Shown: positions 6,144 to 26,373 of the stretch, in pieces
How the letters are laid out: every line of letters begins with the position of its first letter
Numbering within the stretch: the first letter of the stretch is position 1
DNA from: a virus
Virus record (IMG/VR): IMGVR_UViG_3300004097_000021
Span: 1-34,929 of that record
Length of the DNA stretch: 34,929 bases
Direction: 5' to 3' (one strand)
Made by a program: the position numbers and the translations under genes
The notes under the pieces: generated by a model
What the model was told of the DNA's origin: nothing
Seen by the model: only the letters and a program-made list of their open reading frames with translations
The model's database searches: none

Positions 6144-6159
6144 ACTAACTCCTATTAGT
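6144..6159 (-). promoter_or_regulatory. Shine-Dalgarno hairpin, candidate CsrA site (copy 1)
   Basis: Read on the - strand: ACTAA, loop TAGGAG, TTAGT, then ATG at once. The stem is five perfect base pairs and the loop holds AGGAG. The 5' stem contains the TAA stop of the ERF gene (6157-6155), followed directly by an in-frame TAG, so ribosomes finishing ERF would reach and open this hairpin. Confidence 0.7.
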
Positions 6160-6757
6160 TTTTATTGCGCAAAAAATGGCGTGCATTATTTATAAAGTGA
6201 GTAGCTTGGTCATTCAAGTCTTCTTGCGTCGATAGCCACTTACAATAATCAATCAAGTCATTCCTATCTACCTCATTAAATCTCTTTCCCTTCATTTTAC
6301 CCATTGGGATGATATAATCCTCGATCTTCCCAATAGAATCGCTCGCAGAGGCATTTACGGGTTTATCAGACCCATGCTTGTTAGTGCTATCGCTGTCTTT
6401 GCTATCATCTATGCAAAATAATCCGTTAAGCGCATATTTTCGAGCATAACTAGAAGTTGATCCAGTTAATTGACTGGAATCCATCCCTTTCTTATTTGCT
6501 TCTTCACGAGCAAAGCCCTGAGCTGATATAGATTCTTCATTTAAAGAAATAGTAGCAGTCGCTTTGATATAGATTCTATCTCCAACAGCAACTATGTCAT
6601 CATTGATTACTAATACACAGGGAGCGAGTAAAGGCTTCAAAGCCTCTAATATATCTTCGCAACTACGATAATTGTACTTCCCAAAATTATTTCTTTGGTT
6701 CTTTGGTGCTTTGAGTTCTCTTTGGATCTTTGCTAAATTCTTTTGTAATTCACTCAT
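6155..6757 (-). CDS. erf: ERF-family single-strand DNA annealing protein
   Basis: 200 residues. ERF proteins anneal complementary single strands in phage recombination and genome circularisation. Family signs are the N-terminal helix and PKN..NNFGKYNYRSCEDILEALKPLL (about 18-44), the beta-rich core (INDDIVAVGDRIYIKATATI), and the signature SSYARKYALNGLFCIDD at about 102-118. After a Ser/Asp-rich linker, the C-terminal ~55 residues (PMGKMKGKRFNEV...YCKWL) resemble the small DUF3820-type domain, an uncommon tail for ERF. TAGGAG lies before the ATG but without a paired stem. It lies downstream of the RecE-like exonuclease with a homing endonuclease between, so exonuclease and annealing protein probably work as a two-component recombination system. 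Confidence 0.85.
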   Translation of the reverse strand: MSELQKNLAKIQRELKAPKNQRNNFGKYNYRSCEDILEALKPLLAPCVLVINDDIVAVGDRIYIKATATISLNEESISAQGFAREEANKKGMDSSQLTGSTSSYARKYALNGLFCIDDSKDSDSTNKHGSDKPVNASASDSIGKIEDYIIPMGKMKGKRFNEVDRNDLIDYCKWLSTQEDLNDQATHFINNARHFLRNKN

Positions 6758-6769
6758 TTTTTTCTCCTA

Positions 6770-7306
6770 TTATAAATGCGCCCATTTTCTCTTTTGGGCA
6801 ATGTGGGCAATTGTGCTTTTACTTATTCCAAACATACCAGCGATGGTACTGTAGGAATGCTCTTTTTCGGCCACAAGCTGCTTAATTTCAATAACTTGAG
6901 ACTCTGTTAGTTTTGCTGCTGGATTCTTTTCTCCAATAGGTCTTGGGACTAAACCCATCCTAAATGCGTGTAGAGCGTTTCCACTAGCACAAATCCATTC
7001 CAAGTTAGCTAATCTATTGTCATTTTTGATGCCGTTCATGTGGTTTATTTGAGGCAAATTATCAGGATTGGGGATAAATGCTATTCCAACAAGTCTATGC
7101 ACTTTAAAAAAATTTTTCTCCCTATTCTTATATAAAACAACAGTTTCATAACCCCTATTGGTGCTTGGACGTAAGAATTTGCCTTTAATATTTCTATGCC
7201 CATTCTTAAACTTTGAAGTCCTATCAAGGGAGCGGACTCTCCCCTGATTAGATACTTCATATAAACCTTCAAAACCTTTAACTGGCTTCCATATTTCTTT
7301 TGCCAT
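6770..7306 (-). CDS. NUMOD4/HNH homing endonuclease
   Basis: 178 residues with three recognisable parts: NUMOD4 at the N-terminus (about 4-30, EIWKPVKGFEGLYEVSNQG), an HNH nuclease core (VHRLVGIAFIPN...INHMNGIKNDNRLANLEW) and a C-terminal helix-turn-helix (about 132-172, LTESQVIEIK...SYSTIAGMFGISKSTIA) that would read the target DNA. Free-standing HNH genes of this kind nick or cut DNA of related phages and spread themselves. It starts at 7306, the last base of the exonuclease gene, and sits between exonuclease and ERF, a pair usually adjacent, so it is probably a later insertion. GAGGGGGG precedes the ATG. All domains look intact. Confidence 0.9.
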   Translation of the reverse strand: MAKEIWKPVKGFEGLYEVSNQGRVRSLDRTSKFKNGHRNIKGKFLRPSTNRGYETVVLYKNREKNFFKVHRLVGIAFIPNPDNLPQINHMNGIKNDNRLANLEWICASGNALHAFRMGLVPRPIGEKNPAAKLTESQVIEIKQLVAEKEHSYSTIAGMFGISKSTIAHIAQKRKWAHL

Positions 7307-8124
7307 TATAAACCCCCCTCAAGTTTCTGTTCTGCGGCCTCAAGCTCATAAATAGGAAGTTCTATGTCTACAACCTCATTAGAATATCCAAAGTCTTTAG
7401 AAGGCTTATCACTTGCTTTAAATTCTGCAAGATCAGTAAGGGCTGCCGCATATCTTTTTCTACCTGCTAATAATGACTGAGCATCTAACCTGTAAACACC
7501 AACAGCAAATGGAGCAGTTTTCTCAACAGCGATGAAGATAAAGTCATTAACTTGATCGGTTCCTTCTAAATTAACTGTGTCCATGTAATAGGCAGCTTGG
7601 AGGTGATAGTTAAACTTCATAATTGAGCGCATGAAGCCTTGTGGGGAGGCATCCAAAGTAGACTTGATATCAACTATAGTATTACCTTTTCTGTAATCTA
7701 AACGGCACTTTCTTTCGATATTTAAAGCATCTTTTGCAAAGTAACTCATCTCAGACTCGCCTCCACTTAGAAGGTTTTCCGTTACTGGATTATCTAGGAT
7801 TGCCTTGGCCATTTCATTGGCCTGCTTCCAGATGTCACTAGATACAATAGTCTTAAGTTCGGCTTCTTCCAAAAACTCAGCGTAAAGTGCTTTACCTGAC
7901 TTTGTTCTTCTATCTACTACTGGCTTTACAGCATAAGCATCTTCTACCGTTTCAGGCTCAAGAATTAGAGCGTGTAACAACTGACCTAATAAAAGAGCGT
8001 CAGTCTGCTCGAGTTTTTGATTCACAGCGTGGTAAACACTTTTCTTATCAATCGTCTTTAATGTAGTTGATCCTACTGCTGGTGAATTGTGATAATCTGC
8101 ATTACTAATTAGTCTTTTTGTCAT
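7306..8124 (-). CDS. RecE-like PD-(D/E)XK exonuclease
   Basis: 272 residues. It resembles the nuclease domain of RecE (exonuclease VIII) and related phage exonucleases that resect double-stranded DNA to give 3' tails for an annealing protein. Visible motifs: GQLLHALILEPE (47-58), an acidic stretch GGESEMSYF (121-129), RLDYR with Asp143, VDIK with Asp152 and Lys154 (the D...DxK metal site), and HLQAAYYMD (174-182), the usual QxxxY helix. Length fits a full domain. It is the first gene of the - strand operon; AAAGGAAAG lies before the ATG and a promoter candidate lies about 35-60 bases upstream. The downstream ERF gene is the expected partner. Confidence 0.85.
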   Translation of the reverse strand: MTKRLISNADYHNSPAVGSTTLKTIDKKSVYHAVNQKLEQTDALLLGQLLHALILEPETVEDAYAVKPVVDRRTKSGKALYAEFLEEAELKTIVSSDIWKQANEMAKAILDNPVTENLLSGGESEMSYFAKDALNIERKCRLDYRKGNTIVDIKSTLDASPQGFMRSIMKFNYHLQAAYYMDTVNLEGTDQVNDFIFIAVEKTAPFAVGVYRLDAQSLLAGRKRYAAALTDLAEFKASDKPSKDFGYSNEVVDIELPIYELEAAEQKLEGGL

Positions 8125-11247: not shown

Positions 11248-11612
11248 TACACGCAATTAGATGCTATCAGCCTGTTAATATTCCAGGACGCACTTCGTTA
11301 AACATGGTGAGTATAAAGCAATTACCTGACCTATTGGAAATAATAAGAGCAGAAGGCGGTTTTGTTATTATGGGTAAATGGAACGCACTTTGGGGCGATA
11401 AGAGAGAGCTTTTTAATATCTTTGTACCAGATGCAAATGTGCAATATGCTTACATTACTGACATTCACGATACCAAGATTAAGGAAATGACTTACAATGC
11501 AAGCAAATTCACATTAACAGAGCTTAAGTCATTAGCTAAAGCTAGAGGTGTAGAAACATCGGGCAAAACTAAGAATGATCTAGTAAACGAGTTGAACGCA
11601 CTTGGATTTTAA
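11244..11612 (+). CDS. SAP/HeH-motif protein
   Basis: 122 residues, ATG at 11244 with GGAGGAAG directly upstream, four-base overlap with the previous gene. The C-terminal ~33 residues (FTLTELKSLAKARGVETSG, then KTKNDLVNELNAL) are a SAP or HeH-type helix-extended-helix motif, usually DNA-binding. The N-terminal ~80 residues (GFVIMGKWNALWGDKRELFN) are beta-rich and not recognised. It lies between small and large terminase, so a link to packaging or to the DNA end is plausible but inferred from position. Confidence 0.6.
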   Translation: MIHAIRCYQPVNIPGRTSLNMVSIKQLPDLLEIIRAEGGFVIMGKWNALWGDKRELFNIFVPDANVQYAYITDIHDTKIKEMTYNASKFTLTELKSLAKARGVETSGKTKNDLVNELNALGF

Positions 11613-13035
11613 AAGATTAACCCCAGCACAAAAAATGCTTATTCTGGAGGCAAAGAAAAGAGGCATCATCAAACCTCATGTTTCCAATTATCGTCATGGA
11701 GACTTTGTAAGACAAAATGCCTACCTAGATGCCAGAAGTACAGCTAGGCATAGGGCCGCACTCTGTACCAGAAGGGCAGGAAAGTCCATGGGCGAAGCTA
11801 TAGATATGTTAGAGGTCGGAACTCTATTCCCTAATAGCAGACAAGTTTATGGAGGTCTTACAGTATCAACAGTCTTTGACATTATTTGGGATATCTTCCT
11901 AGAGCTAGACGAAGAATACAAAATAGGCATAAAGCCCTTAAAGGCTGATTATAAAATCATCATGCCCAATAAAACCCAGATACAGCTTTTTGGATTGGAT
12001 GCTAGTCAAAAGCAAATGAGAAAGATCCTCGGTAGAAAGCTAAGAAAGGCCACAATAGATGAAGCAGGTTCAATCACAACAGGATTAGAGAAGATTGTTA
12101 AGCAGGCAATTAACCCAGCTCTAGCAGATTTAAGGCCATATTCATGGCTCAGCCTAATTGGTACACCTGAGAATATTCCTAATACATATTTTGAAAAGGT
12201 GACTACAGGCAATGACCTCGATATCGGGTGGAGTATCCATAGTTGGACTGCCTACGAAAATCCTTTTATGAAAAACCAATGGACTGAAGAAGTCGCTGAA
12301 ATGAAGGCAAATAACCCAGAAGTGGTAAATGCTTCATGGTTTAAAACCCACTATTTGGGTCAATGGTGTACTGATGAAGAAATGCTTATCATCAACTTCA
12401 AAGAAAGCAGAGATTATGTAACAGAGTTTAATAAGAATAATGAGTTTGATTGGTATCACATACTAGGCGTGGATATTGGATACAACGATGCCACCGCATT
12501 TGTAGTTTTAATAACTAGCCCTTACTCAGACACCTCTTACATCGTGGAAGCCTTTAAACAGGAAGAAATGGACTTCACAGATGTAGCTAACACCATCAAA
12601 GCAATATGCTCAAGATACCCTATTGACTACAGGGTAATAGATGGCGCTAACAAACAGGGCGTGCAAGAAATCATTAACAGGCATGGGATTCAATTAGAAA
12701 GCGCTGAAAAGCAAGATAAGAATATACATTTAAGACTTTTAAATGATGACTTGAAGATGGGAAAGGTGAAGCTGGTAAGAAATAAAACTGAAGCTCTAGC
12801 AGATGAATGGAAGGCGCTTGTCTGGAAAGATGAGATGAAAGAAAAAGAGGATGATAGATGTCAAAACCACTTATCTGATGCTGCCCTATATGCTTGGAGA
12901 AAATCATTACACTTTATAGGACTCAAGATGAAAGAACCGCATAAACTCCATAGCTATGAAAAACAGCTAGAATGGGAAAAAGAAGAAATGAAGCAATTAG
13001 AGCGTGAAAAAGAGGAAATGGGATTTTTATGGTAA
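11602..13035 (+). CDS. terL: Terminase large subunit
   Basis: 477 residues, the packaging ATPase and nuclease. Walker A is RRAGKS (57-62), Walker B is ATIDEAG with Asp153-Glu154. The coupling region follows at SLIGTP (184-189). The RNase H-like nuclease begins at GVDIGYNDATAF with Asp291, and includes VIDGAN (Asp347) and HLSDAALYA (Asp426), so the metal triad looks complete. The C-terminus is a charged helix (EKQLEWEKEEMKQLEREKEEM). The first possible start is TTG at 11602, overlapping the SAP gene by 11 bases with no strong ribosome-binding site; ATG at 11635 is an alternative. A 59-residue gene begins inside the last codons. Confidence 0.95.
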   Translation: MDFKRLTPAQKMLILEAKKRGIIKPHVSNYRHGDFVRQNAYLDARSTARHRAALCTRRAGKSMGEAIDMLEVGTLFPNSRQVYGGLTVSTVFDIIWDIFLELDEEYKIGIKPLKADYKIIMPNKTQIQLFGLDASQKQMRKILGRKLRKATIDEAGSITTGLEKIVKQAINPALADLRPYSWLSLIGTPENIPNTYFEKVTTGNDLDIGWSIHSWTAYENPFMKNQWTEEVAEMKANNPEVVNASWFKTHYLGQWCTDEEMLIINFKESRDYVTEFNKNNEFDWYHILGVDIGYNDATAFVVLITSPYSDTSYIVEAFKQEEMDFTDVANTIKAICSRYPIDYRVIDGANKQGVQEIINRHGIQLESAEKQDKNIHLRLLNDDLKMGKVKLVRNKTEALADEWKALVWKDEMKEKEDDRCQNHLSDAALYAWRKSLHFIGLKMKEPHKLHSYEKQLEWEKEEMKQLEREKEEMGFLW

Positions 13036-13208
13036 CACCAAAAGAATTAACAGAGTTGGCAGAAGTTTGTATTAAGTTTGGAATCCAGCACATGAAAACA
13101 CCAGAGCTGGAGATAATGATTAATCCTTCTTTACAGCAGGGTCAACAGTTAGCTTTAAAACAGATGAGTAAAGCAGAGCTAGAAGAATTAATGTATGCAA
13201 GTACCTGA
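13029..13208 (+). CDS. Small hypothetical protein overlapping the large terminase end
   Basis: 59 residues from ATG at 13029 (within the terminase stop region, ATGGTAA) to TGA at 13206-13208. GAGGAAATGGGA lies upstream. The product looks helical (TPKELTELAEVCIKFGIQHM; LALKQMSKAELEELMYAST) with a Gln-rich middle. The overlap and ribosome-binding site support it; no family recognised. It ends just before a hairpin and a new promoter candidate, so it is the last gene of the packaging unit. Confidence 0.6.
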   Translation: MVTPKELTELAEVCIKFGIQHMKTPELEIMINPSLQQGQQLALKQMSKAELEELMYAST

Positions 13209-13351: not shown

Positions 13352-13678
13352 ATGGCGTTCAAAAATGCACTAAGAAAAAAATTTCAAGGCAAAAATAAAC
13401 CTAAGGGTGATATCTATGATAAAGATGGTTATATAGTTTTGCCTGAGTCTAATAATGGTTGGGGTGAGGACTTCTATAGAAAAAAACTTCTAAAACCTAA
13501 TAGAAAATATAAAAGAGAAGAGCCTAAGGATGATAAGGATAAAATTTACGAGGGTTTTATAACTCTGCCTAAGGATCCAAAAACGTGGAATTTTAACCTC
13601 AACGCTCCAAAAAAACCATGGAGAGGTAGGGAGAATAGGCGGAATGAGCGAAGGTGGAAACCGCGAATGGTGAGATAA
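13352..13678 (+). CDS. Very basic small protein, possible virion cargo (1)
   Basis: 108 residues with many Lys and Arg. It begins MAFKNALRKKF, an F-K-x-A-L-x-K-K motif that recurs in the next genes. Two related segments follow: KDGYIVLPESNNGWGEDF at about 24-41 and YEGFITLPKDPKTWNFNL further on, suggesting an internal duplication of a (G)-(Y/F)-I-x-L-P unit. The C-terminus is almost all Arg, Lys, Trp and Asn. GGGGTAGAGG lies before the ATG. A DNA-associated protein packed inside the head is my inference from charge and place before the portal; no family is recognised. Confidence 0.65.
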   Translation: MAFKNALRKKFQGKNKPKGDIYDKDGYIVLPESNNGWGEDFYRKKLLKPNRKYKREEPKDDKDKIYEGFITLPKDPKTWNFNLNAPKKPWRGRENRRNERRWKPRMVR

Positions 13679-13681
13679 ATT

Positions 13682-13933
13682 ATGAAGTTTAAAAAGGCAT
13701 TAGCAAAAAAGGTGAAAACAATAGAAAACAAACCTATAAGCATCACCAAAGATATTGGAAGGCCCGAAGATCCTGATTGGTCAAAATATAATGAAAATCG
13801 TAAGAGCAAGAAAGGCAAACGCATCCGAGTTTATACGCCTTTAACAGAAGAACAGATGAACTTATATGAGCTAGACCCTGAGCATTATGAGGATCTGGAA
13901 GATTCAGGTATTGCGAAATGGATGTTCGATTAA
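13682..13933 (+). CDS. Basic small protein with FKxALxKK N-terminus (2)
   Basis: 83 residues, ATG at 13682 four bases after the previous stop. It begins MKFKKALAKKVK, like its neighbour upstream. The middle is basic (RKSKKGKRIRVY) and the C-terminus acidic (LYELDPEHYEDLEDSG). No known domain. The shared N-terminal segment with otherwise unrelated bodies suggests a common targeting or packing signal rather than simple duplication. Confidence 0.6.
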   Translation: MKFKKALAKKVKTIENKPISITKDIGRPEDPDWSKYNENRKSKKGKRIRVYTPLTEEQMNLYELDPEHYEDLEDSGIAKWMFD

Positions 13934-13942
13934 GAGGAAAAT

Positions 13943-14485
13943 ATGAAGGAAGCATTTAAACAAGCATTAAGCAGGAGAGTGGCTGAAATAAAAAGAGCTA
14001 AAGATGTTTTCGAGCTTAATCCAAAAAAAGATAATCCAGACTTTTATTTACAGCGTGTAGGTAGCCGTAAAACAGTTGGTAGAGTCCATGATAAGATACC
14101 AGATAAGGGACTTCCAAGCACATATATTGGCGTAAAGGTGAAGCCGCCACATGATCCTGAACTGGTTAAGATAGGCTTCAAGGGCCATAAGATAACAGGG
14201 GCGCCTGAACTAAAAGGAATGGGAACGGCCCAACAGTTTGTTAGGAAAGCAGATATTCAAGGAATGAAATTTGATTATCCATCTGAAGGTAAGGCCAATA
14301 AAAATGCTCAATCAGTAATAGCGAATGAGCTTAAGGGATTGAAAAAAATGGAAATGAAAAGACTCGAAAAGATGAATAAAACAAATAAGCTTTTAAAAGC
14401 ATTAAGTAAAGCAGGTGGATCTAGTTCTGGATTAAAAGGTGGCGGGTCAATCAAAATACCCCAGCCAAAATTAAGGAAGGATTAA
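13943..14485 (+). CDS. Basic protein with FKxALxRR N-terminus (3)
   Basis: 180 residues, ATG at 13943 with GAGGAAA upstream. It begins MKEAFKQALSRRVAEIKRA, a variant of the motif in the two genes before it. The middle has SRKTVGRVHDKIPDKGLPSTY and a region with GFKGHKITGAPELKGMGTA; the C-terminal part is a basic helix followed by a Gly/Ser-rich tail (KAGGSSSGLKGGGSIKIPQP). No catalytic motif is visible. Structural or cargo role inferred from neighbours only. Confidence 0.6.
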   Translation: MKEAFKQALSRRVAEIKRAKDVFELNPKKDNPDFYLQRVGSRKTVGRVHDKIPDKGLPSTYIGVKVKPPHDPELVKIGFKGHKITGAPELKGMGTAQQFVRKADIQGMKFDYPSEGKANKNAQSVIANELKGLKKMEMKRLEKMNKTNKLLKALSKAGGSSSGLKGGGSIKIPQPKLRKD

Positions 14486-14488
14486 GAT

Positions 14489-14737
14489 ATGGATGACTAT
14501 TATAGACGATTAAGAAGGACAGAGATACTTAGGCCAAAGTCTTATACAGATTTAGGTAAATCTTTACATAAAAGGTTTAGTGATTGGTTGGACAATTACC
14601 ATAAAAAAGCTATGGAAAGCGAGGAAGGTAAAAAGTGGCTGAAAGAAAAGAAAAAGAAAGATGCCTTTAGACAGTCTTTATTGAATCAGCAAAAGAAATG
14701 GAGAGAGGCTAAGAATAAAAGAGAGAACAAGAAATGA
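14489..14737 (+). CDS. Basic helical protein (4)
   Basis: 82 residues, ATG at 14489 after AAGGAAGGAT overlapping the end of the previous gene. A KSLHKRFSDWLDNYHKK segment at about 23-40 resembles the basic amphipathic motif of the neighbours; the C-terminal half is a nearly continuous Lys/Glu/Arg helix. The next gene starts inside its stop (ATGA). Function unknown. Confidence 0.6.
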   Translation: MDDYYRRLRRTEILRPKSYTDLGKSLHKRFSDWLDNYHKKAMESEEGKKWLKEKKKKDAFRQSLLNQQKKWREAKNKRENKK

Positions 14738-15801
14738 GCGATTCATATAGATCAATTGCCAAAACCAACTATGTCGATCCAAGAGAACAAGAAAAAAGGA
14801 AAAAGCTTAAGAAAGGGCTAATAAGAAAAGCTAAGGAATTAAAAGGGATAGCATATAGGAAAGCTGATCCAAACTATAGCTTAGGTAAAAAATGGAAGTA
14901 TAAAAAAGAACACGAAGTAGACACAAAAAAAATCGTAAAAGGCGTCAATGAATATGCAGGTATTGCAAAAAAGACCTACGAAGGTAAAGGTATAACAAAA
15001 AAAGAATATATTGGTGCGCTTAAGTCTGGTCAATCTCAATTAAAGCAAATGCGTGATAGAGGTCAGGCGGGAATTGATTATACATTAGATAAATTTGATC
15101 GTGAACTTAATATAGGTTCTAAGACAAGCGACGCAGATACAAAGACCATTAGAAAGTTTGGAAAGTTAGATCCTAAATTAGATAAAAGGAAAACCAGAGG
15201 CCAGTTTTCTTTAAATATAGTTAAGAATGAACGGCCAAAGATAACATACTCAAAAAAGAACGTAGGAGTTTCTACTATGCTACATGAACTCGATCACATG
15301 AAAGACTATGCACAGAGGAACTTTGTCCCATCAACTAGAGAAGGAGGCTTCTGGAAAAGTAGGCAAGTACCAACGGAAACAGTTGTGAAAGGCGCTACAT
15401 CTCCAAAAGGGATTGGGCATCATAGTTGGGAGACAGGACAAACTGAGATGGCACAAGAAAAGCACTTAAAAACTGGTGGATCAGCATTAAACTATGTGAA
15501 TATACCTAAAGTTATAAAAGGCGCAGAGGAAAGGTTTGAAAAAGATAAAGAATCATTCGTGCATAGACCAGAGAAGCCAACTCAATATGAAACGAAATAT
15601 GGCAAAAAATTAAAAGAAAGCAATGTAGATACCAGCGTAATGAAAGGTGATGTTAAAGACTTGGTAGATATTCAAGGTAAGAAAGAGCCTTGGGAAAAAA
15701 TACCTTATCACAAAATGTCCGATATAAGAGTTAAAGGAATCAGCTACCCAGAAGATCCGAAGCCAATTAAAAAATCATTAAAACGATTGAATTTAATGTG
15801 A
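14734..15801 (+). CDS. Basic protein with HELDH zinc-peptidase motif
   Basis: 355 residues, four-base overlap with the previous gene. The N-terminal ~100 residues are extremely Lys-rich and contain KLKKGLIRKAKEL, like the neighbours' leader motif. Residues 184-188 are HELDH in the context VGVSTMLHELDHMKDYAQ, a good HExxH zinc-binding helix preceded by a short strand as in metallopeptidases. Glu233 and Glu237 (WETGQTEMAQ) are candidates for a third ligand. The rest is charged with no recognised domain. It lies between packaging and portal genes, so it may be a virion-carried peptidase acting during maturation or after injection. Activity is inferred from one motif. Confidence 0.6.
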   Translation: MSDSYRSIAKTNYVDPREQEKRKKLKKGLIRKAKELKGIAYRKADPNYSLGKKWKYKKEHEVDTKKIVKGVNEYAGIAKKTYEGKGITKKEYIGALKSGQSQLKQMRDRGQAGIDYTLDKFDRELNIGSKTSDADTKTIRKFGKLDPKLDKRKTRGQFSLNIVKNERPKITYSKKNVGVSTMLHELDHMKDYAQRNFVPSTREGGFWKSRQVPTETVVKGATSPKGIGHHSWETGQTEMAQEKHLKTGGSALNYVNIPKVIKGAEERFEKDKESFVHRPEKPTQYETKYGKKLKESNVDTSVMKGDVKDLVDIQGKKEPWEKIPYHKMSDIRVKGISYPEDPKPIKKSLKRLNLM

Positions 15802-15812
15802 AGGAATAATTT

Positions 15813-16031
15813 ATGACTATAAAAAAATACAATCAAGACGAAAAGTTATATGGCCCTGTTCCTGTAACAAAAAGTAGGATGCACAAGTTTTTACAAAAGT
15901 ATTTTAAAATGAGATCAAAGGTTCATGCTATGGACGATTGGGAAAGCCCTGAGTTTAAAAAAGGTCGAAAAAAATACAAGCAAGAACATAGTGCTTGGCA
16001 AACTTCTGAGGAACTTTTGAAGGATAAATAA
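15813..16031 (+). CDS. Basic small protein (6)
   Basis: 72 residues, ATG at 15813 with AAGGA upstream. The middle (SRMHKFLQKYFKMRSKVHAM) is a basic amphipathic helix similar in character to the leader segments of the preceding genes; the rest is Lys/Glu-rich. Its stop TAA overlaps the A of the portal ATG. No family recognised; the close spacing suggests co-expression with the portal. Confidence 0.6.
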   Translation: MTIKKYNQDEKLYGPVPVTKSRMHKFLQKYFKMRSKVHAMDDWESPEFKKGRKKYKQEHSAWQTSEELLKDK

Positions 16032-17893
16032 TGATACATCATATTCAAACGAACAAACCTTGGTGGGAATACCCAAAAAATGAAGTAGGGCCTGCGCTTC
16101 TAGGTCATATTGAGTACCTAAGAACTAGGTATGGAACAAGGTCAGATAAAAACCTTACTCATTTAAAGCTTTTTGGGCAGTCTGATATTTTTGGGCTTAA
16201 TGATGATGTTGTTACCCTATTCAGAAGTCGTGAAAGGGCAAGAATTAACATTATTAGGCAAGTGATTGAGGCGGCTCAGGCAAAAATAAGTAGGCATAAA
16301 CCAAAGGCTAGATTCTTGACTGAGAATGGGAATAGTCTGAAGCAAAAAAATGCTAAAAAGCTAGAGAAATATTGCTTAGGTGTTTCTCATAACGATAATC
16401 ATTGGCAAAAGTCTAACGTTGATTTTATTCATGCTGCTGTCTTTGGTACTACAGCAAGAAAGTTTTTTATGGATGAAGAAGGGAATCCAGCTTCAGAAAC
16501 GGTTTTAATTGAAAACATTAAAGTTGATGAGTCTGAAATAGCTATAAGCGGTGATGGGAAGCCTTTGGCCCTATACCAAGAAGATTTTGTTCATATAAGC
16601 GCACTTCAAAAAAAATATCCTAAATACAAAGATCAATTTGAGTCTTGTGGTATAACCCATCATGCTTTCTTTTCGGCTAGTGATTTAAAAGGAATGGCAA
16701 GGGTTACGGAAGGATGGAAATTGGCCAGTGCTAAAGGTGCAAAAGATGGTAGGCACGTTATAACTTGTGGGAAAATAACCTTAGTCGATCAGGCTTGGAC
16801 AGAAACAGAATTTCCTTTCGAGTTCTTCAAAATGTATGAAAATATTTTAGGCTTTTTCGGTCAAGGTGTCCCAGAAAGGCTATTGAGTTTGCAGATAGAA
16901 ATAAACAAGCTTTTAAAAGATATCCACGAGATTATCCATTTAGGTTGTGTCCCTAAGATATTTAGTCCAGTTGGGGCGATTACAAAGTCACATCTTAATA
17001 ATGCTATTGGAACAGTTGTAGAGTTTATGGGCCAAACAATGCCTCAAATGACCCAACTAATGTCCGTCCCGCCTGAATTATTTGTCCAGTTGGAAAGGTT
17101 GATTAAGTTTGCTTTTGAAGAAGTAGGTTTATCTATATTAACAGCTCAGTCTGTAAAGCCTGCTGGTTTAGACTCTGGTAAAGCATTGAGAGAATTTAGC
17201 GATATTGAGTCTGACAGGTTTAGCATTATGTCTGAACAATGGGAAGATTATCACATGAGATGCTTTGAGAAGTATCTGAAAGTAGCAGAAAATGCGGCAG
17301 AAAAATACCCAGAGTTATCAAGTAAAGCGCTTGATGATGAGGGATACGAAGTAATCAATCTAAAAGAAATAGATATGCATGACCTCGACTTTGTTGTTAG
17401 GACTTACCCAGTAAATCTTTTAAGCGATAGACCAGCTCACAGATTGGCAGATGTAAGAGACTTAATTGACACTGGCTTAATTACCCCAGAAGAAGGGAAA
17501 GGTCTGCTTAACTTCCCAGATGTTACTGCCCACATGAATAGAACTATGGCCCCTGAACAATTTCTCAAAAACGCAATAGATACTATCCTCGAAAAAAATA
17601 TGTATATACCGCCAGATCAATTTCAGGATCTTGAGCTTGGTATCAGAATGTTTAATCAATCAATTAACTACTATAGAACAGTAGACGTTCCACCAGATTC
17701 GATATTCCTACTTGAGCAATGGGTTAGTGATGCTATTGCAATCGTTAACCAGCAACAACAGCAAGCTATGGAACAAGAGATGATGATGGCACAACAACAA
17801 CAACTTTTAGGAGGAATAGATGGAACAAGTCCAGACACAGCAGCAATCGGCGCCAATGCAGGAGCATCCCAACCAGCCCCAGCAGGGATCTAA
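16031..17893 (+). CDS. Portal protein
   Basis: 620 residues, a typical length for podovirus portals. The portal forms the dodecameric ring at the head vertex through which DNA passes. Supporting features are: position after the terminase and before scaffold and capsid; the start region with RSRERARINIIRQVIEAAQAKISRHKPK; a middle with GFFGQGVPERLLSLQIEINKLLKDIHE, a helix pattern common in portals; the DSGKALREFSDIESDRFSIMSEQWEDYH segment; and a Gln/Met-rich C-terminal barrel region (NQQQQQAMEQEMMMAQQQQ). The scaffold gene starts inside its 3' end in another frame. Confidence 0.85.
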   Translation: MIHHIQTNKPWWEYPKNEVGPALLGHIEYLRTRYGTRSDKNLTHLKLFGQSDIFGLNDDVVTLFRSRERARINIIRQVIEAAQAKISRHKPKARFLTENGNSLKQKNAKKLEKYCLGVSHNDNHWQKSNVDFIHAAVFGTTARKFFMDEEGNPASETVLIENIKVDESEIAISGDGKPLALYQEDFVHISALQKKYPKYKDQFESCGITHHAFFSASDLKGMARVTEGWKLASAKGAKDGRHVITCGKITLVDQAWTETEFPFEFFKMYENILGFFGQGVPERLLSLQIEINKLLKDIHEIIHLGCVPKIFSPVGAITKSHLNNAIGTVVEFMGQTMPQMTQLMSVPPELFVQLERLIKFAFEEVGLSILTAQSVKPAGLDSGKALREFSDIESDRFSIMSEQWEDYHMRCFEKYLKVAENAAEKYPELSSKALDDEGYEVINLKEIDMHDLDFVVRTYPVNLLSDRPAHRLADVRDLIDTGLITPEEGKGLLNFPDVTAHMNRTMAPEQFLKNAIDTILEKNMYIPPDQFQDLELGIRMFNQSINYYRTVDVPPDSIFLLEQWVSDAIAIVNQQQQQAMEQEMMMAQQQQLLGGIDGTSPDTAAIGANAGASQPAPAGI

Positions 17894-18809
17894 TGACGTA
17901 AACATTGATTCTATTGTTGAGCAAATTAATGGAGAGAGGCAAAAAGCAAGTCCAGAGCAACAGCCCGGCCCTACGCAAGATCCTCAAGAAGCAAACAATG
18001 CAGGCAGGTTAGATGAACTTCATAAGCTTGCAGAGCTTGAGAGAGAGCATTACAGGCAGAGAAAACTGCAAAAAGAAAGAGAAAGCGAGCATGAAAGAGA
18101 GCGCTCTCAATGGGAGCAACAAAGGCAACAATACGATCAAGAGCTAATGAGAAACAAGCCTTCTAAATGGCTTGAGCAAAAAGGCATGAGCGTAAAAGAA
18201 TTGGCCGATTCTATTATGCAAGAACAAGAAGATGATGGGACTCTTGAGGGTGATAAAATTGATTATAATACAGCTCTACAACAAGCTATGGAGCAACTTG
18301 AGGGCCGTTTTGAACAAATGTATGACCAAAGAAGGCAGCAAGAACAAGAACAATACGAAATGAATGAAGCCTACGATCAATACACTACAGAATTGAACGG
18401 CTTTTTAAATGAACATATACAAGATTTTCCAGTTTTAGTTGGCTTCAACGGACAAGACCATGTCCTTAAGGCCATTGAAAATGAATTTAACGAAATTGAA
18501 GAACAATATGGGGAAGAATACGCAGATAAATGGCTAAGCAGAGTAAATTTTGGGGATTATGCCCACAATGTGCAAAAAGAGATTGAAACTGGCCTAGTTA
18601 ATGCGTTACAATTACCTGAACTAAGGTCTTATGTAGAAAATATACTACACCAGACCGGTCAAGCTGACCGTAATGTTGAGCCACGTGAAGATGCTCCAAC
18701 AACTTTGACCAGAAACAACTTTGCTAGTCCATCGGGTAGATATCAGGCCGATGAAATGACTGAGCAAGAGCGGATTAGTGCCGCAATTAACATGGTTAAA
18801 GGGCAATAG
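17820..18809 (+). CDS. Scaffold protein
   Basis: 329 residues, starting inside the last 74 bases of the portal gene after TTAGGAGGAATAG, a strong ribosome-binding site. The composition is typical of scaffolds: extremely rich in Gln and Glu, mostly helical, with a long coiled coil (about 65-110, ELEREHYRQRKLQKERESEH...) and a short basic-hydrophobic C-terminus (ERISAAINMVKGQ) suited to capsid binding. Scaffold proteins direct capsid assembly and are lost or cut before packaging. Position directly before the major capsid gene supports this. Confidence 0.85.
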   Translation: MEQVQTQQQSAPMQEHPNQPQQGSNDVNIDSIVEQINGERQKASPEQQPGPTQDPQEANNAGRLDELHKLAELEREHYRQRKLQKERESEHERERSQWEQQRQQYDQELMRNKPSKWLEQKGMSVKELADSIMQEQEDDGTLEGDKIDYNTALQQAMEQLEGRFEQMYDQRRQQEQEQYEMNEAYDQYTTELNGFLNEHIQDFPVLVGFNGQDHVLKAIENEFNEIEEQYGEEYADKWLSRVNFGDYAHNVQKEIETGLVNALQLPELRSYVENILHQTGQADRNVEPREDAPTTLTRNNFASPSGRYQADEMTEQERISAAINMVKGQ

Positions 18810-18825: not shown

Positions 18826-20103
18826 ATGTCATTACAAGGTTTAGACATTACACCAGTCTTAAAGACGTTATATCCAGCCAAAGTGGTTGAGGATATGACT
18901 TACAACGATTTCCCGCTATACGCTATGCTACCAAAGTCTATGGAGTTCTATGGACTTGATATGAAGTCACCAATTAAACATGGTAGACCTCAAGGGCGTT
19001 CAGCAACTTTTGCACAAGCAAAGGCAAACAAGTCTAATTCAAAGTATAAATCTTTTCTTCTTGAAAGAGTAAAAGACTATTCAATGGTAGACGTAGATCA
19101 CGAGCAAGTAGAAGCTTCAGAAAAAGACATGGGAGCTTTCGTAAGATGGCTTAAGTCTGAAATGGACGGTGCTTTTGAAACAATGACTCATGCAATGGGT
19201 TGGTCAGTTTACGGTAATAACTCAGGTACAATTGGGCAAGTAGAAGGTGTTTATGCTTCTGTTACTAATGCCTTAGCTGGAACTGCTGGCGATGGTAATT
19301 TTATCAAGCTTAAAGAAGTTGATGATGTTGTAAAATTTGAAGTAGATCAAGTTCTTGACTTATTTTCATTAGAAGTTGGCGGAACTGATATTGATCTTGA
19401 TGGAGCTGGAACTACACTAGTTAAAATCGCTTCAGTAGATAGAGAAAATGGAATTATTTCAGTTACAAAAACTGATGGATTGGCCGTAACTCTACTTGTT
19501 GCTAACGTAGTTGCTAATTCTTTCATCTTCACTGATGGTGATAAAGAAGCAAGAATGTCAGGCCTAGATGCTTGGATTCCAGCCACAGCCCCATTAGCTG
19601 GTGACGATTTTTTTGGTGTTGACCGTTCAGTTGACCCTACAAGACTTGCAGGAATCAGAGTTGATGGAACTGGACTTCCAATCGAAGAAGCTCTAACTAA
19701 AGGGATCACAACTTCAGGTAGAGAAGGTGCTTTCTTTGATTATTACTTTGTAAACTGGAAGAAATACCAAGAACTACAAAACGCTCTAGGCGCTAAAGTT
19801 CAATATGTTAAAACAAACGCCTACGGTAGAGCTGATATCGGTTTCACTGGTATTCAACTTACTTCAGGGAAAAGACCTGTAACAGTTATCGCTGACCCAA
19901 TGTGTAGAGATAAAGTAGCTTATGGGATTAAAATGGATACATGGTGTCTGCACTCTCTTAAGGCTCCAATCAGAATCTTGAATTTAGATGGAAACAACCT
20001 TCTAAGAAATAACAATGCTGATTCTTCAGAACTAAGAGTTGGTGGTTATTTCCAGATGGCTTGTACTGCACCGGGCAAAAACGCTAGAGTAGCACTTGAT
20101 TAA
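18826..20103 (+). CDS. Major capsid protein
   Basis: 425 residues, preceded by an ideal AAAGGAGTAAAAA before the ATG. The N-terminal part (YNDFPLYAMLPKSMEFYG, ...KSKYKSFLLERVKDYSMVDVDHEQ) and the helix with DGAFETMTHAMGWSVYGN fit HK97-fold capsid proteins of marine and enteric podophages. A beta-rich insert (about 165-235, VKFEVDQVLDLFSL...FIFTDGDKEARMSG) leads to LDAWIP and the C-terminal domain (WKKYQELQNALGAKVQY, then VTVIADPM). It follows the scaffold and is followed by a terminator, as expected for the most highly expressed gene. An unrelated fold cannot be excluded without modelling. Confidence 0.85.
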   Translation: MSLQGLDITPVLKTLYPAKVVEDMTYNDFPLYAMLPKSMEFYGLDMKSPIKHGRPQGRSATFAQAKANKSNSKYKSFLLERVKDYSMVDVDHEQVEASEKDMGAFVRWLKSEMDGAFETMTHAMGWSVYGNNSGTIGQVEGVYASVTNALAGTAGDGNFIKLKEVDDVVKFEVDQVLDLFSLEVGGTDIDLDGAGTTLVKIASVDRENGIISVTKTDGLAVTLLVANVVANSFIFTDGDKEARMSGLDAWIPATAPLAGDDFFGVDRSVDPTRLAGIRVDGTGLPIEEALTKGITTSGREGAFFDYYFVNWKKYQELQNALGAKVQYVKTNAYGRADIGFTGIQLTSGKRPVTVIADPMCRDKVAYGIKMDTWCLHSLKAPIRILNLDGNNLLRNNNADSSELRVGGYFQMACTAPGKNARVALD

Positions 20104-20746: not shown

Positions 20747-21418
20747 ATGGCCTCTAAAACTTTAGCCGAGCTTAGAGCAGTAACAAGGCAAAGGGCCAAC
20801 ATGGAAAGGTCTAACTTTGTTACTGATACCGAAATAAATGGCTACATAAATACTGCCTATTCACATCTTTACGATATCTTGACCAATACTTTCGGTGATG
20901 AATATTTCTCAGCAAGCACAACACTAACAAAAGTCGGGGAAAGCCCTGAGTTTGATATATCTTCGCTAGATCCTGAGCTTTACAAAGTTATTTCAGTTTG
21001 TGCTGTAAGTAGCGGAATAAGATATCCAATAAAAAAAATTGATGGGCTAACGGCCACTTACGGGAAACTTAATACCTCTATAAACCAATTTGAATTAACT
21101 TATGTGCCAATGCCTACACAGGCGCTTGGTGATTCAGATGCTTTTGAAATACAAAACGGCTGGGATGATTTCATAACTTCTAGTGCAGCAATAAAATGTC
21201 TTGTTAAGGAAGAATCTGATATCTCACAGATTATGATAGAAAAATCTGAAGCAGAAGAAAGGATCGTGGCCATGTCGAGGTCAAGAGATGTTGGACAGGT
21301 TCATCAGGTTAATGATGTTAGAAGGAATACAAGTCACTTCTTTTTACTAGGCTATCACATAAAAGCAGGCAAAATAATAATCAGCAATACCGATAGGGAT
21401 TACTACTATGGGTATTAG
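20747..21418 (+). CDS. Head-tail adaptor protein
   Basis: 223 residues with CTAAGGAGGACTAA before the ATG. The N-terminus TLAELRAVTRQRANMERSNFV, followed by TDTEINGYINTAYSHLYDIL, is characteristic of the podovirus adaptor family that forms a ring below the portal (like P22 gp4 or T7 gp11). The middle has FELTYVP.P.....SDAFEIQNGWDDFI, also usual for the family, then a helix with charged residues. It lies between capsid and nozzle genes, as expected. The last ten bases overlap the next gene. Confidence 0.8.
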   Translation: MASKTLAELRAVTRQRANMERSNFVTDTEINGYINTAYSHLYDILTNTFGDEYFSASTTLTKVGESPEFDISSLDPELYKVISVCAVSSGIRYPIKKIDGLTATYGKLNTSINQFELTYVPMPTQALGDSDAFEIQNGWDDFITSSAAIKCLVKEESDISQIMIEKSEAEERIVAMSRSRDVGQVHQVNDVRRNTSHFFLLGYHIKAGKIIISNTDRDYYYGY

Positions 21419-25100: not shown

Positions 25101-25922
25101 ATGGGTCTTTTTAGTAGTATAGGTAGCGCAGTAGGTGGTCTTGTTGGGGGTGCTGGTAGTCTTTTAGGTGGTGCAATAGGGCTAGGAAAGAAAGTTTTTG
25201 GCGCTGAAAAATACAAGATGGCCCCTGTTAAATTTGAAGGTAAGCAAAATAAATTGGCTGATATGCTTATGCAGCAAGCTCAAGGTAAAGGCCCTAGTGT
25301 TGCTATGGAGGCAATGAGGAAAGGTACAGCTCAAGGTCTTGCAAACATTAGAGGTGGACTTCAGGGGATGTCAGGATTAAGCCAAGGGGCAAAGGCTAGA
25401 ATGTATGCTCAACAAGCTGGAAAAATGACCAGAGGGGTTGCTTCAGAAGGTGGAACAATGAGAGCGCAGGAACAGATGGGTGCTAGAAAAAGCTTAGCTG
25501 ATTTTATTCTAAACTCTCAAGCGCAGCAGACAAGTAGAAGTAATGTTGCTAGGCAGGCTCATCAAGATTCTTCAGATCGCAGACAAAAAGCAGTAAAAGG
25601 TATCGGTGAAGGTATAGCAACTTTTGCAATGATGGGTGGTTGCTGGGTAGCCAGAGCAGTTTTTGGGGTAGGCGATATTAGATGGATCTACGCTAGAAAT
25701 TACATCTTTAATCATGGCCCTGTTTGGTTCCGTAATTGGTATAAAAAGAATGGTGAAAAATTTGCTCAAAAAGTTAAAAAATCAAAGATCCTCAAAGCTC
25801 TTATCACGCCTCTTTTCGTTTTCTTTGCAAAAAAAGGTGAAGAATTGTGGAATACTAATTTAGACCCCTATGACGATACTTTTTTTAATGAATTAAACAA
25901 AATAAAAGAATTAAGAGGTTAA
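25101..25922 (+). CDS. Internal virion / tail protein with CWVARAVFG domain
   Basis: 273 residues. The N-terminus is a Gly/Ala-rich hydrophobic stretch (SSIGSAVGGLVGGAGSLLGG) as in small ejection proteins that insert into membranes. The middle is Gln/Ala/Gly/Arg-rich helix. The C-terminal part begins GGCWVARAVFGVGDIRWIYAR and continues FRNWYKKNGEKFAQKVK, a conserved module I know from the C-termini of many marine phage tail and ejection proteins. It starts a run of three ejection-type genes. DNA translocation across the envelope is inferred from class and context. Confidence 0.7.
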   Translation: MGLFSSIGSAVGGLVGGAGSLLGGAIGLGKKVFGAEKYKMAPVKFEGKQNKLADMLMQQAQGKGPSVAMEAMRKGTAQGLANIRGGLQGMSGLSQGAKARMYAQQAGKMTRGVASEGGTMRAQEQMGARKSLADFILNSQAQQTSRSNVARQAHQDSSDRRQKAVKGIGEGIATFAMMGGCWVARAVFGVGDIRWIYARNYIFNHGPVWFRNWYKKNGEKFAQKVKKSKILKALITPLFVFFAKKGEELWNTNLDPYDDTFFNELNKIKELRG

Positions 25923-25923
25923 T

Positions 25924-26373
25924 ATGGAAGGATTTATGAAATTTGCAAAGGCGTTAATGAGAAGTGGTGAAGCTAAAGAAGTAGGAGGTCTTGCCAAAAA
26001 ATGGAAGGACGTCGATGCCCCTAAGGGGTTTTTAGATGGGGCAAAAGAAGTAGAAGGGCAAGCCAAAAAATGGAAGGACGTCGATGCCCCTAAAGGGTTT
26101 TTAGATGGGGCAAAAAAACCTACCACAGGTCAAAAGATTGCTACTGCTATCGGTACAGGCTTTGCAGGAGTCGGTAAAGATAATAAAGCACTTGATATGG
26201 TCAAAGACAAGTATGGCCCTAGCTGGTTAAAAGATTGGAGTAAAGGAGGATCTGATTCCGAAAGTGAAGATGATGGGTGGGACGTATATGACAAAAATCC
26301 AGATATGCCTAATGGTAGAGAATTAAATATGGATAAATTCCTAAAAAGAATAAAGATGATGTCGGATAATTAG
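25924..26373 (+). CDS. Small virion-associated protein with tandem 23-residue repeat
   Basis: 149 residues, one base after the previous stop. It starts MEGFMKFAKALMRSGEAKE, a leader reminiscent of the F-K-x-A-L motif in the cluster at 13352-16031. Residues 18-63 are two nearly identical 23-residue units (KEV.G.AKKWKDVDAPKGFLDGA). Then TGQKIATAIGTGFAGVGKDNKAL, which matches a segment of the next protein (TGNKIMLAIGVGMAGVGG.NNAL), links it to the ejection proteins. The C-terminus is acidic, then basic. Likely a small injected or scaffold-associated virion component; function unknown. Confidence 0.65.
   Translation: MEGFMKFAKALMRSGEAKEVGGLAKKWKDVDAPKGFLDGAKEVEGQAKKWKDVDAPKGFLDGAKKPTTGQKIATAIGTGFAGVGKDNKALDMVKDKYGPSWLKDWSKGGSDSESEDDGWDVYDKNPDMPNGRELNMDKFLKRIKMMSDN
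25975..26112 (+). repeat. Two tandem 69-base coding repeats
   Basis: 25975-26043 and 26044-26112 each encode 23 residues and are nearly identical at the DNA level, including a long shared stretch from GCCAAAAAATGGAAGGAC to the TTAGATGGGGCA end. Differences lie in the first third of each unit and one silent change. The near-identity indicates recent duplication or ongoing recombination. Confidence 0.9.

Follow-up and report, generated by a model that had tools for sequence, protein, structure and literature searches.

The lysine-rich gene island

Six tightly spaced open reading frames (ORFs) on the + strand, here termed b1 to b6, lie at positions 13352-16031 of the window, a linear virus record of 34,929 bases (IMGVR_UViG_3300004097_000021), between the terminase and the portal genes. 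The record belongs to an uncultured phage, presumably of the short-tailed type. The six ORFs have purine-rich sequence upstream of their starts, and all are rich in lysine (17-22%) with isoelectric points (pI) of 8.8-10.2, so that the cluster of six basic proteins that had been described here from the letters alone is confirmed. The protein b1 (13352-13678, +; 108 aa, K 19%, pI 10.2) begins with the leader MAFKNALRKKF, in which FKNALRKKF takes up residues 3-11. The leader of b2 (13682-13933, +; 83 aa, K 17%, pI 8.8) is MKFKKALAKKV, with FKKALAKKV at residues 3-11, and that of b3 (13943-14485, +; 180 aa, K 18%, pI 10.2) contains FKQALSRRV at residues 5-13. Loose matches to these words were seen in b4 (14489-14737, +; 82 aa, K 22%, pI 10.1), with LGKSLHKRF at residue 22, and in b5 (14734-15801, +; 355 aa, K 18%, pI 9.9), with LKKGLIRKA at residue 25; b6 (15813-16031, +; 72 aa, K 21%, pI 9.8) has MHKFLQKYF at residue 23.

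Codon bias favoured the own frame of b1, b3, b5 and b6. All forward frames of b4 were alike, and in b2 another frame scored higher than its own; b2 was accepted as a gene because of its near-zero spacing to its neighbours and because it carries the leader. We found no match for b1 in Pfam or NCBIfam (best PHROG E 0.22), while the best PHROG match of b2 (E 0.0063) was to a family of unknown function, and b1, b3 and b5 had no match in the phage collection. None of 21 pairs of proteins showed full-length gapped similarity at shuffle p<0.02, in line with the view that the bodies are otherwise unrelated.

The longest of the six, b5, contains HELDH at residue 184, an HExxH pattern with possible further ligands downstream; 56 of 5000 shuffled versions of the protein also contain HExxH. 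No match to b5 was found in Pfam, PHROG, NCBIfam or PDB sequences, and its single-sequence model was poor outside helices 16-130, with pLDDT below 50 around HELDH. On the strength of the motif, b5 is a candidate zinc metallopeptidase; we take HExxH to be a zinc-peptidase pattern and not one of the prohead-protease type.

The genes on either side belong to packaging and head formation. The terminase large subunit (11602-13035, +; phrog_2, E 1e-28) is followed by a small acidic gene of 59 aa (13029-13208, +), which forms the left edge of the island. The right edge is the portal gene (16031-17893, +), whose product is 22-24% identical to the portals of a Cellulosimicrobium and a Microbacterium phage. 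Next come an acidic scaffold-like protein of pI 4.6 (17820-18809, +), named for its position between portal and capsid, and the major capsid protein (18826-20103, +), which matched phrog_14242 weakly (E 6e-5) and showed 31-48% identity among the matches listed. The terminase, portal, scaffold-like and capsid proteins have pI values of 4.6-6.2, in contrast to the basic proteins of the island. Given its first ATG, the scaffold-like ORF overlaps the portal ORF by 74 bases (17820-17893).

Insertion at the terminase-portal junction

A near-identity DNA search of the phage collection with the window gave no match, and scans of viral contigs with single proteins gave nothing. Relatives came only from alignment-based scans, with terminase identities of at most 35% and portal identities of up to 38%. 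By terminase, portal or capsid similarity we gathered 222 loci (L009-L230), a set without de-duplication in which some loci overlap as parts of a single contig and others are distant recruits by terminase only. A capsid search of genome contigs led to three MAG contigs of mixed labels, and we therefore claim no host. The scaffold-like protein has relatives in 22 of the 222 loci.

When these loci were searched for relatives of b1-b6 at E<1e-3, none contained any. Terminase and portal were both present in 144 loci, and the interval between them measured 60-400 bases in 111; in 14 it was shorter than 60 bases or the genes were out of order. It reached at least 1500 bases in two loci and 1761 bases at most, compared with 2996 in the window, so that none of the 144 was as long. 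What the interval usually contains is a single small gene, in most cases acidic, immediately ahead of the portal; the gene at 13029-13208 resembles it in size, charge and place, with weak sequence similarity (best E 0.15). In the two loci whose capsids come closest, L171 and L173, the portal is likewise preceded immediately by a small gene, and the island is missing. Ten of the extra junction genes in relatives were tested, and these comprised one recombination endonuclease VII (L226) and nine genes without a Pfam match (E 0.01). Since no relative of b1-b6 was found in the 222 loci and no interval is as long, b1-b6 is a lineage-specific insertion at a place where relatives too carry extra genes. 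The insertions in related phages share the site of the island (19 of 144 intervals are at least 400 bases long) but differ in content, as they neither form a run of lysine-rich genes nor include a relative of b1-b6.

A lysine content of at least 16.5% was reached by 67 of 3287 non-overlapping ORFs of at least 60 aa in the 222 loci. The distant contig L082 has the longest series of them, with four, and L165 has a series of two. The four very basic small ORFs of L082 (7549-8511) stand in a row upstream of the terminase and form an analogous-looking cluster. A basic protein of 386 aa lies between portal and scaffold in L173 (4096-5256) and is absent there in most relatives; it was considered as a counterpart of the island and rejected, having no match to b1-b6 or to the lysine-rich ORF at 25924 described below (p 0.06-0.92, 14 tests).

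A leader common to b1, b2 and b3

The original prediction had placed a common N-terminal segment on all six proteins, more loosely on the last three. When the best-scoring block of nine residues was sought blind, with one window per protein, the same words were recovered, and the starts of b1-b3 follow the pattern FK-x-A-L-x-[KR][KR]-[FV]. For the first 20 residues of this trio the block score was 77, compared with 33.3 (sd 7.3) in shuffles that keep composition, and 0 of 500 shuffles reached it. Natural N-termini were taken from mechanically called ORFs of the 222 loci, and of random trios of these with at least seven K/R, 1 of 500 reached the score. Using 40 residues of b1-b5 the score was 170 versus 96.1 (sd 13.5; shuffles 0/150, natural sets 1/150), and with all six it was 207 versus 134.8 (sd 18.1; 0/100 for both shuffles and natural sets). 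Because the two larger sets contain b1-b3, what the other genes add was tested with the b1-b3 matrix. This gave shuffle p values of 0.043 for b5 and 0.067 for b4 and left b6 outside the 18 best of 43 genes; by these sequence scores the matches of b4 and b5 appear marginal and that of b6 is not separable from chance. Furthermore, when scores were anchored at the N-terminus, the three pairs among b1, b2 and b3 were the top three of 903 gene pairs. Taken together, the sequence comparisons support a common leader for three genes and not for six.

The similarity of b1-b3 thus outlasts control for composition in the block test, while pairwise tests were much weaker. With the first 20 residues, 9 of 400 shuffles reached the score of the top pair among the six, 1 of 400 reached the score summed over all pairs, and 12 of 60 reached that of the top pair drawn from all 43 genes. 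Over 40 residues the corresponding counts were 88/400, 6/400 and 39/60, and in gapped comparisons of 60 residues none of the b1-b3 pairs gave p<0.02. The strict leader pattern occurred at 24 places in the viral DNA collection, none of which opens an island-like gene; these sites open frames of at most 61 codons or sit inside longer frames. At an E limit of 0.01 only one of the 24 loci matched any of 28 window proteins, namely a recombination protein.

At the DNA level, b1-b3 are 63-70% identical over the 27-nt leader, compared with 17-57% over the 30 bases flanking it on each side. At third codon positions the leaders agree in 4-5 of 9, and b2 and b3 have the codons TTT AAA and GCA TTA in common. 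The confinement of DNA similarity to the leader suggests that it was kept at the protein level and not left by a recent copy, and recent copying of gene starts was not supported, as the likeness is bounded to the leader and the flanks differ. The helical moment of the b1-b3 leaders was not above that of shuffles (p 0.11-0.45). The b3 leader was modelled as a helix at residues 2-21 with low confidence, and the prediction for b3, made without relatives, was poor.

Three further likenesses were examined and set aside. A second common block at about residues 45-60, in b4-b6 or in all six, was not above shuffles (z -0.3 to 0.9, seven tests). The first 20 residues of b4 and b5 resemble each other (anchored score 23, rank 7 of 903); with b6 included 79 of 300 shuffles reach the score, and the likeness is unproven. 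A stretch of 14-15 residues in b5 and b6 had a shuffle p of 0.017 as one of many tests, and the block test was unsupportive.

A leader-like start in the presumed ejection-protein cluster

The same leader had also been assigned to a K-rich ORF of 149 aa at 25924-26373 (+), in a presumed ejection-protein cluster. Its sequence reads MKFAKALMRSG from the fifth residue (25936). Taken from the fifth codon, the ORF has a summed score of 56 to b1-b3, which 1 of 2647 natural N-termini reach. When about 40 genes and two starts are allowed for, this support becomes modest, and the p value with the b1-b3 matrix was 0.047; the assignment is thus retained as a moderate match from the fifth residue. The start at 25924 has a better-spaced ribosome-binding-like sequence than that at 25936. 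The one natural N-terminus that reaches 56 is in L210 (12652-12972), in a homologue of the window protein at 21408, and begins MSFKKALRKI. Many homologues of the 21408 protein start with a looser FKK.

Two tandem copies of 69 nt, 91% identical, lie within the 25924 ORF (25972-26109) and encode a 23-residue repeat with KKWKDVDAPKGFLDGAK. The presumed ejection protein at 25101-25922 is 33% identical (E 1e-4) over its C-terminal part, residues 157-238, to a hypothetical protein that the marine Puniceispirillum phage HMO-2011 encodes near its tail genes.

Comparison with T4 and giant phages

The leader had been compared in idea with capsid-targeting sequences. Published accounts of T4 describe a short N-terminal segment common to otherwise diverse head proteins (PMC3012670, PMC5694885), with internal proteins in which only the targeting sequence is conserved (PMC3012670), and report that this leader (CTS) is removed by the gp21 protease (PMC5694885). 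For the giant phage SPN3US, the account in PMC5694885 gives N-terminal extensions that are proposed to target proteins to the prohead, identical first 15 residues in gp53 and gp54, and several propeptides of more than 100 residues that are cut by the prohead protease. The island resembles the T4 internal proteins and Alt in its short leader, small unrelated bodies and variable set, the T4 leader being compared by description, and it resembles SPN3US in having an N-terminal segment common to several proteins. It differs from SPN3US in that its leader has only about 10 residues and no protease was recognised, and from the T4 CTS in that neither a protease nor a common cleavage position was seen and the island is known from its genes alone.

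No prohead protease was found among 39 window ORFs compared with PHROGs (E limits 1, 0.1, 0.01 and 0.01), nor any member of the protease family in smaller ORF sets compared with Pfam and NCBIfam, in a record that is linear and may be a fragment. Assuming x-x-E as the cut motif, the first Glu after the leader is at residue 32 in b1 (LPE) and at residue 15 in both b2 (TIE) and b3 (VAE), and reading the translations gave no common Glu-type cleavage position in the b1-b3 leaders. The comparison with giant phages and T4 therefore fails on the prohead protease, which was not recognised among the window proteins scanned. As neither a maturation protease nor a common cleavage site was seen, the data do not support placing the island in the T4 capsid-targeting system. 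If the leader is a targeting signal, the lack of a protease and of a common Glu position makes an uncleaved docking helix more likely.

A tentative role for the leader and its alternatives

We sought one account for the packed insertion among head genes, the lysine-rich unrelated bodies and the common start. Our preferred but tentative reading is that the leader of b1-b3 may be a head-loading docking segment whose cargo is delivered with the DNA. Having entered after the small acidic gene and ahead of the portal, the island would be read together with the packaging and head genes, presumably late, and would supply small basic accessory proteins. The basic segment of about 10 residues on b1-b3, and perhaps on the 25924 ORF, would act as an uncleaved docking helix that attaches to the portal or to the acidic scaffold (pI 4.6) while the head is assembled. 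In this way the unrelated bodies would come to be packed in the head and passed on along with the DNA, as T4 internal proteins are. The location of the genes, the type of protein (small and basic, with unrelated bodies) and the moderate leader match in the 25924 ORF make such a role plausible. Against it count the short, K/A/L-rich nature of the leader and the fact that b4-b6, half of the island, are without a clear one. We consider it doubtful, though worth stating, that these genes represent an independent head-loading code in a small phage outside the T4-like and giant groups, with an uncleaved helix of about 10 residues, an island of exchangeable cargo next to the portal and perhaps a metallopeptidase cargo and a tagged ejection-module protein.

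Head loading ranks first among four explanations, with non-virion proteins that bind nucleic acid and take over the host close behind, followed by a relic of gene copying and last by chance. The second of these is itself rather improbable. In it, basic N-terminal helices would bind DNA, RNA or membrane and be alike through a common job, which would suit the high lysine content of the whole proteins. The endonuclease VII at the junction of a relative points the same way, indicating that genes with no connection to head contents also enter at this site. However, genes of the host-takeover type usually lie in early regions and the island lies between terminase and portal, and a loose basic helix would not call for so strict an FK-x-AL order as the three neighbours show. 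It is unlikely that the leader is merely what remains of one gene start, start codon included, copied long ago before different bodies and now functionless. Three direct neighbours do carry it with some identical codons, but the low agreement at third positions and the unlike flanks mean that any copy is old, and a leader without a function should have decayed like its flanks.

Still less likely is a chance convergence of lysine-rich, AT-rich gene starts from which the best-looking three were picked. The motif was indeed selected after looking, and shuffles do reach the pairwise scores (9/400 for the six, 12/60 for all genes, oftener within 40 residues). This explanation has to contend with the trio score, which no shuffle out of 500 and a single natural trio out of 500 reached, and with the top three of 903 pairs falling on adjacent genes. 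If head loading is correct, delivery of proteins by short tags would no longer be confined to T4-like and giant phages but would include a group seen repeatedly in IMG/VR contigs; the tag would be testable by simple fusions, and cargo genes without homologues would become recognisable. If it is wrong, the island still exemplifies lineage-specific gene gain at the terminase-portal junction.

Outside the head region of the window, at 6155-8124, an HNH endonuclease is flanked by genes for an Erf-like annealing protein and an exonuclease VIII-like protein, an arrangement that suggests a homing insertion in a recombination operon.
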